This document shows positions 39,756 through 52,830 of a DNA stretch of 64,000 nucleotides, piece after piece; the stretch's first letter is position 1; each line of letters starts with the position of its first letter. Source of the DNA: Planctomycetes bacterium MalM25 (lineage in GTDB: Bacteria > Planctomycetota > Planctomycetia > Pirellulales > Lacipirellulaceae); contig CP036424.1 in assembly GCA_007745835.1 (NCBI GenBank), positions 558,001 to 622,000 on the forward strand. The letters are read 5' to 3'. The notes beneath the pieces were generated by a model, which did no database searches, was not told the origin of the DNA, and saw only the letters and a program-made list of their open reading frames with translations. Made by a program: the position numbers and the translations under genes.

Positions 39756-39940
39756 CAAGGATCCCCCTCCCCCTTTGGGGGAGGGGCTAGGGGAGGGGGT
39801 TGGTTGTCCTGACCGGCGTCTCTCTCCTGTACAGAGGAAATGCCAAGCGTTTCGAAGACAAGATGCCACAGGCGAGTCGTCCGGTCCTGATCGCCTTAAC
39901 CCTCCCCTAGCCTCTCCCTTTTAAGGGAGGGGGATTCTTG
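39756..39940. repeat. Palindromic MITE-like repeat, intergenic copy (family A)
   Basis: A 185-bp element with terminal inverted CAAGRATCCCCC. Its ends fold into short hairpins (CCCCTCCCCCTTTGGGGGA then TAGGGGAGGGGG; on the other side CCCTCCCCTAGCC and CCCTTTTAAGGGAGGG). The inner core shares TCCTGTA...GA and CCACAGGCGAGTC with the copy inside oleC (47197-47378), and the outer arms match as well. It lies between bshB1 and the carboxypeptidase gene. No ORF inside. Confidence 0.85.
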
Positions 39941-46538: not shown

Positions 46539-46714
46539 CCGAGTCGGCAGACGGCAGAGAACCGAGGGGCAAAGCCGCCGGCGGAAGCCGGCCGATCGCC
46601 CCGCTAGGTCGGTCCCCTTGCATCGCATCCGTCGGCTACCGCCGACGCCTGAGGCGTCTTCTGATGGCGCGGGCCCTCCCGGTCGTTCGTGCGATCGGGG
46701 AGAATGCCCGGGCT

Positions 46715-48595
46715 ATGCCCATCCCGCCCGAACCCCGTGTGAACGTCGCCGACCGCCTGGCGGAGGCTGCGCGCGAGCGGCCCAACGCGATCGCACTCGC
46801 GGCCGCGGACGGCCAGGGCGGCTTCTCGACGGTCACCTTTGAGGCACTCAACGAAGACGCCGACACGCTCGCCCGCGGCTTCGCGGCGATGGGGATCGGC
46901 CCGGGCAAGCGGATCGCGATGCTCGTGAAGCCGGGCGTCGAGTTCGTGACGCTCGTCTTCGCGCTGCTGCGGACCGGGGCGACGATGGTCCTCGTCGACG
47001 CCGGGCTGGGCCGCAAGAACATTGTGCGGTGTTTGGCGTCGACCGATCCGGACGGCTTCGTGGCGATCCCGCTGGGGCACGCGATGCGGGTGCTCAAGCG
47101 GAAGCACTTCCCGAACGCGAAGCTCAATGTCACCGTCGGCCGCCGCTGGGGCTGGGGCGGGGAGACGCTCGACTCGGTGCGCAGGCTCGGTGAGCATGAA
47201 TTCCCCTCCCCCACGGGGGGAGGGGCGAGGGGAGGGGGTCGGTCATCATCAACGATGTCGTCTTCCTGTATCGAAGCACCACAAGAAGGATCAGCAAACG
47301 ACCAATCCACAGGCGAGTCACTCGGTACGGACACTCTCGACCCTCCCCTAGCCCCTCCCTTTCAAGGGAGGAGGATTCAGCACACGTCGGCCGACGATCC
47401 GGCAGCGATCGTCTTCACTTCGGGCAGCACCGGTCCGCCGAAGGGGGTCCTCTACACGCACCAGACGTTCGTCACGCAGTGCGATTCGATCCAGCGGCAG
47501 TACGACATCCGGCCGGGCGATGTCGACCTCGCCTGCTTCCCGCTGTTCGGCCTGTTCAACGTCGCCTGCGGCGTGACGACCGTCCTGCCGGAGATGGACT
47601 TCTCGCGGCCCGCCTCGTGCGACCCCAAGAAGGTCCTCGCGGCGGCGAACCAGTGGAAGGTGACGCAGGCGTTCGCTTCGCCCGCGGTGTGGGACCGGCT
47701 GAGCCGCCATTGCGAGGAGACCGGCGAGTCGATCCCGACGCTGAAGAAGCTTCTCTCGTGCGGCGCCCCGGTCCCCGCGAAGGTGATGCGTCGGACGCTC
47801 CCGTGCGTCCACCCCGAAGCGACGATGCACACCCCCTACGGCGCTACCGAGAGCCTGCCCGTGGCGACGATCGAAGCCCAAGAGATCCTCAACGAGACCG
47901 CCGCCAAGACCGACGAGGGCGCTGGCGTCTGCGTCGGCCGCCGGTTCGACGGCATCGAAGGCTTCCAGTGGCGCGTCATCCGCATCTCCGACGACCCGAT
48001 CCCCACGATCGACCAGACCGAAGAACTCCCGCAGGGAGAGATCGGAGAGCTGATCGTCAAAGGCCCACAGGTCAGCAAGCAGTATCTCGCCCAGCCGGGG
48101 TCGGCAGACCCCGGATCAGCTAACCAAAGCGCCCCGACTCACAACGAGCTCTCAAAGATCCAAGAGGGTGACGACGTCTGGCACCGCATCGGCGACGTCG
48201 GCTACTTCGACGACCAAGAGCGTTTCTGGTACTGCGGGCGGAAGTCGCAGCGCGTGGTGACTGAAAGCAAGACCTACTACACGGAGTGTGTTGAACAGGT
48301 TTGCAATACGGCTGTCGATGTTGAGAAGACCGCATTGGTTGGCGTTGGTAAGGCTGGCGATCCACACCCTGTTTTGGTTGTACAAACGGCTATGCAAGCT
48401 TTCCCGCACGCAACCGATTGGGATATCGAGCTGTTTGAATTGATTGAAAGCAAGGAAGCTACCCAGGGGCTAGATCACGTTTGGATCTACGACGGAGTAA
48501 CGCTCCCCACCGACATCCGCCACAACTCGAAAATCCGCCGCGAGGAACTCGCCTTTTGGGCCGAGAAGCAGCTTCGCAGGCAGGGTCGTTTGTGA
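46715..48595 (+). CDS. oleC: OleC-type acyl adenylate-forming beta-lactone synthetase
   Basis: A 626-residue AMP-binding enzyme. In the ole pathway it turns beta-hydroxy acids into beta-lactones that OleB decarboxylates to olefins. Key motifs are the P-loop FTSGSTGPPKGV, CFPLFGLFNVACG, the adenylation motif PYGATESLPVATIE, GVCVGRRF, GEIGELIVKGPQVSKQYL, WHRIGDVGYFDDQERFWYCGRKSQRV and the C-terminal hinge. oleD is next downstream. Residues about 161-222 (PSPTGGGARGGG ... PPFQGRR) come from an inserted palindromic repeat and are not part of the enzyme; see the finding. ATG 46715 begins MPIPPEPRVNVADRLAEAA. Confidence 0.82.
   Translation: MPIPPEPRVNVADRLAEAARERPNAIALAAADGQGGFSTVTFEALNEDADTLARGFAAMGIGPGKRIAMLVKPGVEFVTLVFALLRTGATMVLVDAGLGRKNIVRCLASTDPDGFVAIPLGHAMRVLKRKHFPNAKLNVTVGRRWGWGGETLDSVRRLGEHEFPSPTGGGARGGGRSSSTMSSSCIEAPQEGSANDQSTGESLGTDTLDPPLAPPFQGRRIQHTSADDPAAIVFTSGSTGPPKGVLYTHQTFVTQCDSIQRQYDIRPGDVDLACFPLFGLFNVACGVTTVLPEMDFSRPASCDPKKVLAAANQWKVTQAFASPAVWDRLSRHCEETGESIPTLKKLLSCGAPVPAKVMRRTLPCVHPEATMHTPYGATESLPVATIEAQEILNETAAKTDEGAGVCVGRRFDGIEGFQWRVIRISDDPIPTIDQTEELPQGEIGELIVKGPQVSKQYLAQPGSADPGSANQSAPTHNELSKIQEGDDVWHRIGDVGYFDDQERFWYCGRKSQRVVTESKTYYTECVEQVCNTAVDVEKTALVGVGKAGDPHPVLVVQTAMQAFPHATDWDIELFELIESKEATQGLDHVWIYDGVTLPTDIRHNSKIRREELAFWAEKQLRRQGRL
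47197..47378. repeat. Palindromic MITE-like repeat inserted inside oleC (family A)
   Basis: A ~182-bp element within the oleC reading frame with the same structure as 39756-39940: C-tract/G-tract hairpins at both ends (TTCCCCTCCCCCACGGGGGG; CCCTCCCCTAGCCCCTCC) and a shared core (TCCTGTA, CCACAGGCGAGTC). The outer ends TGAATTCC and GGATTCA are inverted. AGCA is found on both sides (47193-47196; 47379-47382), a likely target duplication. Element plus duplication is 186 bases, a multiple of three. Confidence 0.85.
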
Positions 48596-48705: not shown

Positions 48706-49758
48706 ATGCGTTGCCTCGTCACCGGCGCCGGCGGCTTCTTAGGCCGTTACGTTTGCGAGCAGTTGCTCGCACGCGGCGACTCCGTGCGCGGGCTGGCGCG
48801 TAGCGAGTACCCGGAGCTGACGGCGACCGGCGTGGAGATGGTTCGCGGCGACTTGGCCGATCGTGACACGGTCGTCCGCGCGTGCGAGGGGGTCGACTGC
48901 GTCTTCCACGTCGGCGGCAAGGTCGGCGTGTGGGGGAAGTGGTTCGACTACTTCCAGGCGAACGTCCACGGCACGCTCAACGTCCTCGGCGCCTGCCGCG
49001 AGCAGGGCGTCGGACGCCTGGTGAACACCTCCAGCCCGAGCGTCACCTTCGACGCGGCCCGCTGGGACTGCGACCAGCGCGGCGTCGACAACTCGGCGCC
49101 CTACCCGACCAACTGGCTCGCCCACTACCCGCACTCCAAGGCGATCGCCGAGAACTTTGTGCTGACCCAAGACGGCACGGCGGGGCCGGGCGGTGTCGTG
49201 CTGCGGACGACCTCGCTCCGTCCGCACCTGGTCTGGGGGCCACGCGATCACCACCTCACCCGCCGGCTTGTTGAGCGGGCGCGGGCCGGTCAGCTCAAGC
49301 GGGTCGGCGAGGGGAAGAACCGCGTCGACATGGTCTACGTCGAGAACGCGGCGGAGGCGCAGCTGCTCGCGGCCGAGGAACTCGCACAGGCCGAACCGAA
49401 GAACGCGGGCAAGGCGTACTTCATCTCGCAGGCGGAGCCGGTGGATTGCTGGGCGTGGATCGACCAGATCCTCGCGCTGGTCGACCTGCCGCCGGTGGAG
49501 AAATCGGTCTCCGCCCGCACGGCCTATTACGCCGGCGCCCTGCTGGAGACCAAGCACTGGCTGCTCCGCGATTTCAAGAACGAGCCTCGGATGACCCGCT
49601 TCGTCGCCCGCTCGCTGGCGACCGACCACTGGTTCGACAAGGAGGCGGCCGCCCAAGATTTCGGCTACCGCCCTCGGGTTTCGACCGAAGAGGGAATGCA
49701 GAGGCTCGGCGATTGGTTGCGTCAGCAACCCGAGCCCCGGAGGGGCGAAAGCGCGTAG
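48706..49758 (+). CDS. oleD: OleD-type NAD-dependent reductase
   Basis: A 350-residue extended-SDR protein, 2-alkyl-3-oxoalkanoate reductase in the ole pathway, acting before OleC. The Rossmann motif is GAGGFLGRYVCEQLLARG; the catalytic Tyr-Lys pair lies in YPHSKAIAENF; RTTSLRPHLVWGPRDHHLTRRL and VDMVYVENAAEAQLLA are typical of the 3-beta-HSD/OleD group. The last residues (PEPRRGESA) and the stop codon are encoded in a palindromic repeat. oleA and oleB are not in the window. Confidence 0.84.
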   Translation: MRCLVTGAGGFLGRYVCEQLLARGDSVRGLARSEYPELTATGVEMVRGDLADRDTVVRACEGVDCVFHVGGKVGVWGKWFDYFQANVHGTLNVLGACREQGVGRLVNTSSPSVTFDAARWDCDQRGVDNSAPYPTNWLAHYPHSKAIAENFVLTQDGTAGPGGVVLRTTSLRPHLVWGPRDHHLTRRLVERARAGQLKRVGEGKNRVDMVYVENAAEAQLLAAEELAQAEPKNAGKAYFISQAEPVDCWAWIDQILALVDLPPVEKSVSARTAYYAGALLETKHWLLRDFKNEPRMTRFVARSLATDHWFDKEAAAQDFGYRPRVSTEEGMQRLGDWLRQQPEPRRGESA

Positions 49759-49847
49759 CCGGGGGCGTGAGCCCCCGGGATGCGATCACCGTCGCCGGTT
49801 CCCAGGGGCTCACGCCCCCGGCTACGCGCCGCTGCCCCTCCGGGGCT
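49730..49847. repeat. Long inverted repeat across the oleD 3' end (family D)
   Basis: A perfect 25-bp inner arm (49751-49775 with 49805-49829; the top strand begins GCGCGTAGCCGGGGGCGTGA) is flanked by outer CCCCGGAGGGGC arms with a four-base mismatch, so the total is about 41 bases per arm. The central arm is itself partly self-complementary (GGGGGC..GCCCCC). A sister element lies at 52678-52830. It supplies the oleD stop codon region. Confidence 0.85.
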
Positions 49848-52652: not shown

Positions 52653-52677
52653 GTGCTGGGCGTTTCTTGAGAGAGTC

Positions 52678-52830
52678 CCGGAGGGACGACGGCGCGTAGC
52701 CAGGGGCGTGAGCCCCTGGTTCTCGGGGGCGTCTTCGCCGAGCCCCGGAGGGGCGGCAGCGATTCGTCCGGCGTGGTTTCCAGGGGCTTGCGCCCCTGGC
52801 TACGCGCTGTCGCCCCCGACGGGGCTGTTT
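52678..52830. repeat. Inverted repeat, sister of the 49730 element (family D)
   Basis: Arms 52692-52719 and 52780-52807 pair with two mismatches and include CCAGGGGC/GCCCCTGG, each also self-complementary. The intervening piece includes GCCCCGGAGGGGC, which matches the outer arm of the family D repeat at 49730-49847. Confidence 0.82.

Follow-up and report, generated by a model that had tools for sequence, protein, structure and literature searches.

When a short palindromic repeat is found within the reading frame of a conserved enzyme, two questions arise: how did a non-coding sequence come to be translated, and what brought it there? Both are posed by an oleC-like gene of Planctomycetes bacterium MalM25, a bacterium with a genome of 4.72 Mb in a single contig (G000 below). 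The gene lies within the stretch of 64,000 nucleotides that was analysed here (the window), to which all coordinates refer unless they are given as genome positions. It extends over 46664..48595 of the + strand, its start codon, at 46664 or 46715, being uncertain, and encodes an AMP-binding protein of the olefin beta-lactone synthetase family: the open reading frame matches PF00501 with an E value of 5.4e-53 and covers positions 2-384 of the 384 in the Pfam AMP-binding profile. As judged by NCBIfam, the protein scores below the cut-offs of the OlefBLtnSyn models and above that of PRK09274.

An inverted pair of triplex-type units within oleC

The insert at 47197..47378 (+ strand) is a two-ended palindromic element of 182 bp, bounded by one AGCA at 47193-47196 and another at 47379-47382; together with one AGCA it amounts to 186 bp, or 62 codons, and the reading frame is open all the way through. 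These data bear out the proposal, made from the letters of this stretch (the sequence-only reading), that oleC was entered by a non-coding repeat which is read there in frame. The element consists of two inverted units that flank a core of about 100 bp (47239..47339, + strand), and each unit is built of a pyrimidine/purine hairpin, CCCCTCCC/GGGAGGGG, and a third purine block behind it. The left unit (47203..47238, + strand; pattern match G000:605205) comprises the CCCCTCCCCC arm, a loop, the GGGGGGAGGGG arm, the spacer CGA and the third block GGGGAGGGGG. The right unit (47340..47375, - strand; pattern match G000:605344) is inverted and, as written on the + strand, comprises the third block ACCCTCCCC, the spacer TAG, the CCCCTCCC arm, a loop and the GGGAGGAGG arm. 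DNA folding predicts hairpins for both units, GC-matched shuffles folding about as well, and in an Rfam search of the window and seven loci the units matched no family at the gathering score.

The closest core found belongs to a second, intergenic copy of the element in the same window (39756..39940, + strand; pattern matches G000:597761-597937). The likeness between the two copies, already noticed in the sequence-only reading, is confirmed by 72% identity across 177 bp and by a core score of z 5.3-5.4 (against 39761-39937). In its layout, the oleC element fits the G/C-rich intrastrand triplex motif (TM), which was described in 2015 as a hairpin with a third purine block and a spacer such as TTA or CCG, present in many copies and in some inverted pairs (PMC4666352, in its available part). 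The oleC-type units resemble TM in all these respects, and the order of pyrimidine arm, loop, purine arm, short spacer and third purine block is found in both oleC units and in the 54 units of the genome.

The linker before the P-loop in related genomes

The element lies in the linker that precedes the P-loop, which was measured from NVTVG to the GS of GSTG. Among 43 genomes of the family, 42 contain a strong oleC match and 41 a readable linker. Its length is 46 residues in 30 of these 41 members (in 23 as determined by script and in 7 by alignment or eye) and 44 residues in one, with longer linkers in 10 and as many as 101 residues in the window genome; nowhere among these relatives do the 62 residues form a conserved loop. 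The count of 62 codons proposed earlier for the insert stands, but the net gain as judged from the relatives is 55 residues and not 62. Similarly, excision of 186 bp, which was supposed to yield the exact empty site, would leave a linker of 39 residues, 7 fewer than usual and 5 below the shortest linker seen in the family.

Relative to the common length, the linker is longer by 55 residues in the window genome, 54 in its congener G001, 19 in G002, 6 in G003, 17 in G005, 12 in G018, 14 each in G007 and G014, 12 in G010 and 4 in G046. The DNA of nine of these ten linkers was inspected by eye: G000 and G001 have elements of the oleC type, G005 and G018 single hairpins of this kind, G014 and G010 palindromes of other sorts, and G002 a heptamer repeat; nothing clear was seen in G003 and G007. 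On a quick gene tree (44 rows, linker columns removed), the longer-linker state requires five changes, at least three of them as judged from well supported branches.

The element of the congener G001 occupies the same oleC codon in the same frame. Simple common descent was not assumed for this shared position, and the core test points to two events in oleC and to one in uvrA. Specifically, the oleC cores of G000 and G001 score z 1.4-1.7 against each other and z 4.6-5.6 against other copies of their own genomes; because each core matches the copies of its own genome better than it matches the other, separate events at oleC are favoured by this sequence comparison. The uvrA element, in turn, is orthologous in the two genomes (core z 7.8-8.7) and absent from G002 and G003; hence, inserts can also be inherited and lost. 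This precedent, along with the identity of codon and frame, speaks for the alternative under which the oleC copies of G000 and G001 descend from one ancestral insertion, the core having later diverged or been converted. The core scores stand against it, even if their weight is reduced by the random core pairs (120 examined), of which 95% fall at or below z 5.1, and so does the finding that the units have remained near consensus in both genomes despite the divergence of the gene; accordingly, we regard a single insertion as possible, with the odds somewhat against it.

A bioA element was recognised by eye in both G000 and G002, and split matches suggest that G001 and G003 are without this insert. 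The MutS loop before Walker A is enlarged in G000, where it holds an element, as well as in G001 and G002, where no clear units are seen (L266-L269).

Copies of the units and the nuclease gene between them

A search of the whole genome for the repeat showed that its ends recur: there are 47 matches, mostly to one end only, and the unit pattern itself detects 54 units versus 0 for the reversed pattern. Upon merging of close pairs, these units make up 51 elements. For 34 of them an inverted partner was found by script, the distance between the outer C and G runs being 84-171 bp; by eye, a weaker partner is visible in most of the remaining 17, and about five lack one. At G000:413496 and G000:2904792, the outer flanks are common to both element copies, so that a longer stretch must have been duplicated there.

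The AGCA copies at the two sides of the oleC element had been taken for a target duplication. In a set of 45 elements (33 of G000 and 12 of G001), direct repeats of at least 4 at the flanks were observed 14 times as compared to a mean of 14.3 with randomly re-paired flanks, and the observed mean repeat length was reached by 102 of 300 re-pairings, the test being coarse, since a script placed the element ends and cut some of them too short on the right. Flanking direct repeats being no commoner than chance, the interpretation of AGCA as a target duplication was rejected, and a DDE transposon or MITE with target-site duplication was set aside owing to the lack of a direct-repeat excess across the same elements.

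Units that face one another at a distance of about 400 bp were found in some genomes, and one such pair encloses a DUF559 reading frame. With a strong match defined as PF04480 at E <=1e-15, which leaves weaker matches in G001, G003 and G007 uncounted, the nine first genomes contain 11 DUF559 copies, all 11 of which adjoin units, 9 of them on both sides (by eye). G023 has neither units nor DUF559, and in G007 the 14 units, which belong to the other subtype, are accompanied by weak DUF559 matches only. The window genome possesses a single DUF559 gene, with a doublet on one side only. Throughout the order, the distribution is patchy, strong DUF559 matches being present in 51 of 196 genomes (72 copies in all).

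When the strict motif was applied to 69 copies across the order, inward units were found on both sides of 29, on one side of 13 and on neither side of 27, with a unit in the other orientation at 12. The corresponding numbers are 0, 6 and 132 for 138 displaced windows of the same loci, and 0, 5 and 277 for 282 random windows of oleC loci. By an inverted-repeat score that does not depend on the motif, 50 of 68 copies surpass the 95th percentile, and 28 the highest value, of 139 displaced windows. A second control, consisting of 937 cross-genome pairs and inflated by the units that genomes have in common, has a 99th percentile that 27 of the 68 surpass; 18 of the 68 have no notable inverted repeat. 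One unit subtype occurs in 34 of the 196 genomes, 16 of which also have a strong DUF559 match (odds ratio 3.2, P 0.004); both the odds ratio and the flank counts include copies of shared ancestry, so that P values overstate independence. The other 18 of these 34 genomes, e.g. G168 with 50 units and G119 with 30, show no DUF559 at 1e-15. Two individual loci are worth recording: in L173 (G003), a dihydroorotate dehydrogenase gene (pyrD by eye) has a full nuclease element joined in frame to its end, and contig 5 of G164 carries, at about 330-339 kb, five DUF559 copies with near-equal scores within 9 kb.

Of 39 plasmid records with DUF559 matches, 16 loci were picked by hand. At 11 of these 16, the inverted-repeat flanks exceed all 64 displaced controls, those of Sinorhizobium K101, A. 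brasilense, Shinella, Synechocystis and Methylobacterium falling below the controls' top; the strict unit test yielded inward units on both sides at 3 loci and on one side at one, several loci having units that face outward. Some DUF559 genes in the plasmid records sit between genes of an operon, such as sufB/sufC or paaD/paaZ. In E. coli, ycjD is located between sapF and fabI, a single place covers at least 80% of the ycjD region in 3332 of 5426 genomes, and the units at the flanks of ycjD are either partial or oppositely oriented. Three E. coli genomes that lack ycjD have transporter genes at the site, hence no empty site. In S. meliloti plasmids an empty site was not found either, most of the listed matches, the source record aside, representing the neighbouring transposase end only. 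Overall, the searches returned no clean empty site for the full nuclease element, and the genome comparisons caught no movement or insertion event. PADLOC returned one weak DpdF match.

The product of the DUF559 gene of the window genome scores 147.1 bits against PF04480 (cut-off 20.6). Thirteen columns, including E22, D51, E62, D64, H68 and D77, are invariant in 35 DUF559 proteins, and the structural model (28 sequences, pLDDT 89.7) matches 3hrl and the homing endonuclease I-Bth0305I (3r3p) and, more weakly, Vsr (1vsr); the sequence profile also matches I-Bth0305I. As far as the available parts of the respective papers go, YcjD has already been grouped with Vsr (PMC1189080), ycjD has been annotated in E. 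coli K-12 (PMC12817139), a DUF559 gene has been placed in the EDxHD homing endonuclease family (PMC9403480), and a DUF559 protein of Caulobacter has been studied under the name VsrA and proposed to be a VSP repair enzyme (PMC12907096). The catalytic domain of the EDxHD homing endonucleases is related to DUF559 by both profile and fold. Unlike I-Bth0305I, the DUF559 elements have a single short domain, structured inverted ends and many dispersed sites, and no intron or intein was recognised around DUF559.

What may spread the triplex units

Here we argue, with a probability of roughly 0.6, that a small mobile element with inverted triplex-motif ends, moved by the DUF559 nuclease, gave rise to the oleC insert as one of its non-autonomous copies. 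Full-length members of this element would carry one gene between the units, that of the DUF559 (YcjD/Vsr-like, PD-(D/E)XK) nuclease. The nuclease most likely would recognise the structured ends or the target and cut or nick the DNA, whereupon the element could be copied or joined in during repair, without target duplication. Copies that land in genes would survive only if they are in frame, free of stops and situated in a tolerant surface loop, and the surviving ones, e.g. that in the linker before the OleC P-loop, would be read as a disordered peptide.

A broader form of this proposal, to which we would assign slightly less than even odds, is that triplex repeats in general, namely, TM/BoxC of E. 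coli and their relatives in many phyla, are the ends or non-autonomous remnants of a hitherto undescribed class of minimal elements that contain only DUF559/YcjD, spread through repair set off by the nuclease and have more than once supplied essential proteins with additional translated peptide. We take the BoxC repeat of E. coli to be the TM motif, which is partly our own reading of the 2015 description, and RIME1 repeats of rhizobia may be members of the unit family.

The gene between the inverted units is placed as mobile cargo would be, on both sides in the 29 copies counted above, and in some records it lies between operon genes, on the background of a patchy distribution. These observations render unlikely a different reading, under which the units are not mobile and result from replication slippage, recombination and gene conversion, the DUF559 protein being a VSP-like repair nuclease that acts near unstable DNA. 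Such a reading could draw on the function proposed for Caulobacter VsrA in the available part of PMC12907096, on the existence of genomes with many units and no strong DUF559, and on the description of the motif itself: in the available part of PMC4666352, TM is tied to instability, TM_ECO is always intergenic with no mobility genes nearby, and no transposase or integrase remnants surround the E. coli copies. The words 'ycjD' and 'endonuclease' do not appear in the main text of that paper (PMC4666352). The units studied here differ from TM_ECO as described there: copies of the window genome are read in frame within genes, and a gene for a nuclease stands between units.

The notion that the units are mobilised by RAYT (Y1 HUH) transposases, in the manner of REP/REPIN, with DUF559 as a passenger or frequent neighbour, appears improbable. 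The window genome has six PF01797 matches, its doublets resemble REPINs, and a distance of 377 bp separates one unit from a RAYT gene; however, inspection by eye showed other palindromes at the six loci and, at the three clearest genes, flanks formed by CCAGGG/CCCTGG-type palindromes (in L117 with a GTAG tag) and not by unit pairs, and the gene that is enclosed by inverted units is DUF559, not RAYT. The single unit at 377 bp was, for this reason, rejected as a sign of partnership with RAYT. A GTAG-type tag was not seen in the units by eye, the third block being preceded by spacers such as CTA, TTA, CGA and similar ones. As a separate observation, Rfam matches to Acido-Lenti-1 (RF01687) at 49733-49778 and 52674-52719 of the window lie in paired GTAG-tagged palindromes, and a third is found about 100 bp from a RAYT gene in L119, which raises the possibility that the 'sRNA' family is a REP linked to RAYT.

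The proposed nuclease-borne element resembles REPtrons and REPINs in that palindromic units surround one small DNA-processing gene and non-autonomous doublets are scattered elsewhere; unlike the Y1 HUH transposase of REPtrons, the enzyme here is a PD-(D/E)XK Vsr-like nuclease. CGTC repeats, for their part, are reported to have no associated transposase gene (both points after the available part of PMC3733652).

In-frame copies and the host proteins

Nine of the 51 elements of the window genome are in frame and stop-free inside coding sequence, by a coarse call that is based on the codon scores of both flanks, and thus have the property that defines in-frame palindromic inserts of the Rickettsia palindromic element type. 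In addition to oleC, the hosts as identified by Pfam domain are MutS, a class I tRNA synthetase (IleS by eye), a GlcF-like Fe-S protein, in which the copy has one unit only, a class III aminotransferase (BioA by eye), MetH, an RNB (RNase R type) protein, UvrA and an N6/N4 DNA methylase. The 34 script-paired doublets have, on average, 1.6 of 6 frames open; hence, most landings in genes would break them. Insertions of this general type have been described: according to the available part of PMC3733652, palindromic repeats and their dimers, including Rickettsia palindromic elements and GTAG/CGTC REPs, are read in frame in genes, notably in repair genes, uvrA among them, and in tRNA synthetases, and different REPs occupy about the same recB site in two species. 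The units discussed here differ from these in having the triplex block and no GTAG or CGTC tag that could be seen.

As for OleC itself, the AlphaFold model (30 sequences, 626 residues) has a mean pLDDT of 82.9, with 338 residues at 90 or more, 168 at 70-90 and 65 below 50; runs below 50 are confined to residues 166-217, within the insert, and 461-466. Of the 106 columns that are identical in the other 29 relatives, the window protein differs in 2 (residues 69 and 538), both differences being mild; the same-column count for other members ranges from 0 to 6. The model suggests that the insert is likely a tolerated disordered loop, and the peptide would presumably be made and be harmless. Between the two fates envisaged in the sequence-only reading, tolerance and decay of the gene, the former fits better with the model and the sequence comparison, the rest of the gene looking functional. 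That the copy damaged a gene which is now decaying, as 55 residues added just before the P-loop could suggest, seems highly improbable, given the open frame, the near-complete set of otherwise invariant columns, the confident predicted fold outside the insert and the like inserts in eight other conserved genes.

Two further features of the gene can be mentioned. Its GC content dips to 0.49 at 48264-48463, with 0.535 in the adjoining window and 0.58-0.72 elsewhere in the gene, and this stretch is a possible recombined or foreign segment. A second OleC loop contains the palindrome CCGGGGTC..GACCCCGG at 48095-48114, and varied inserts are found in this loop in relatives, e.g. a repeat-like insert of 45 residues in G056.

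Intragenic palindromic repeats (PMC3733652) and triplex units (PMC4666352) are already known, and the oleC insert is one case of a wider phenomenon. What we believe to be new is the existence of longer, patchily distributed versions of the element in which flanking units enclose the gene of a DUF559/YcjD (Vsr-like) nuclease; no paper linking DUF559 to triplex-motif repeats was found in the literature searched, which comprised few subscription papers. The unit-enclosed nuclease gene is a concrete candidate for the agent that spreads triplex repeats, so that the question of what spreads them becomes amenable to experiments at the bench. For the bacteria concerned, the in-frame copies clearly exemplify the conversion of non-coding DNA into reading frame within housekeeping enzymes, with sister genomes that are free of the insert available for comparison.
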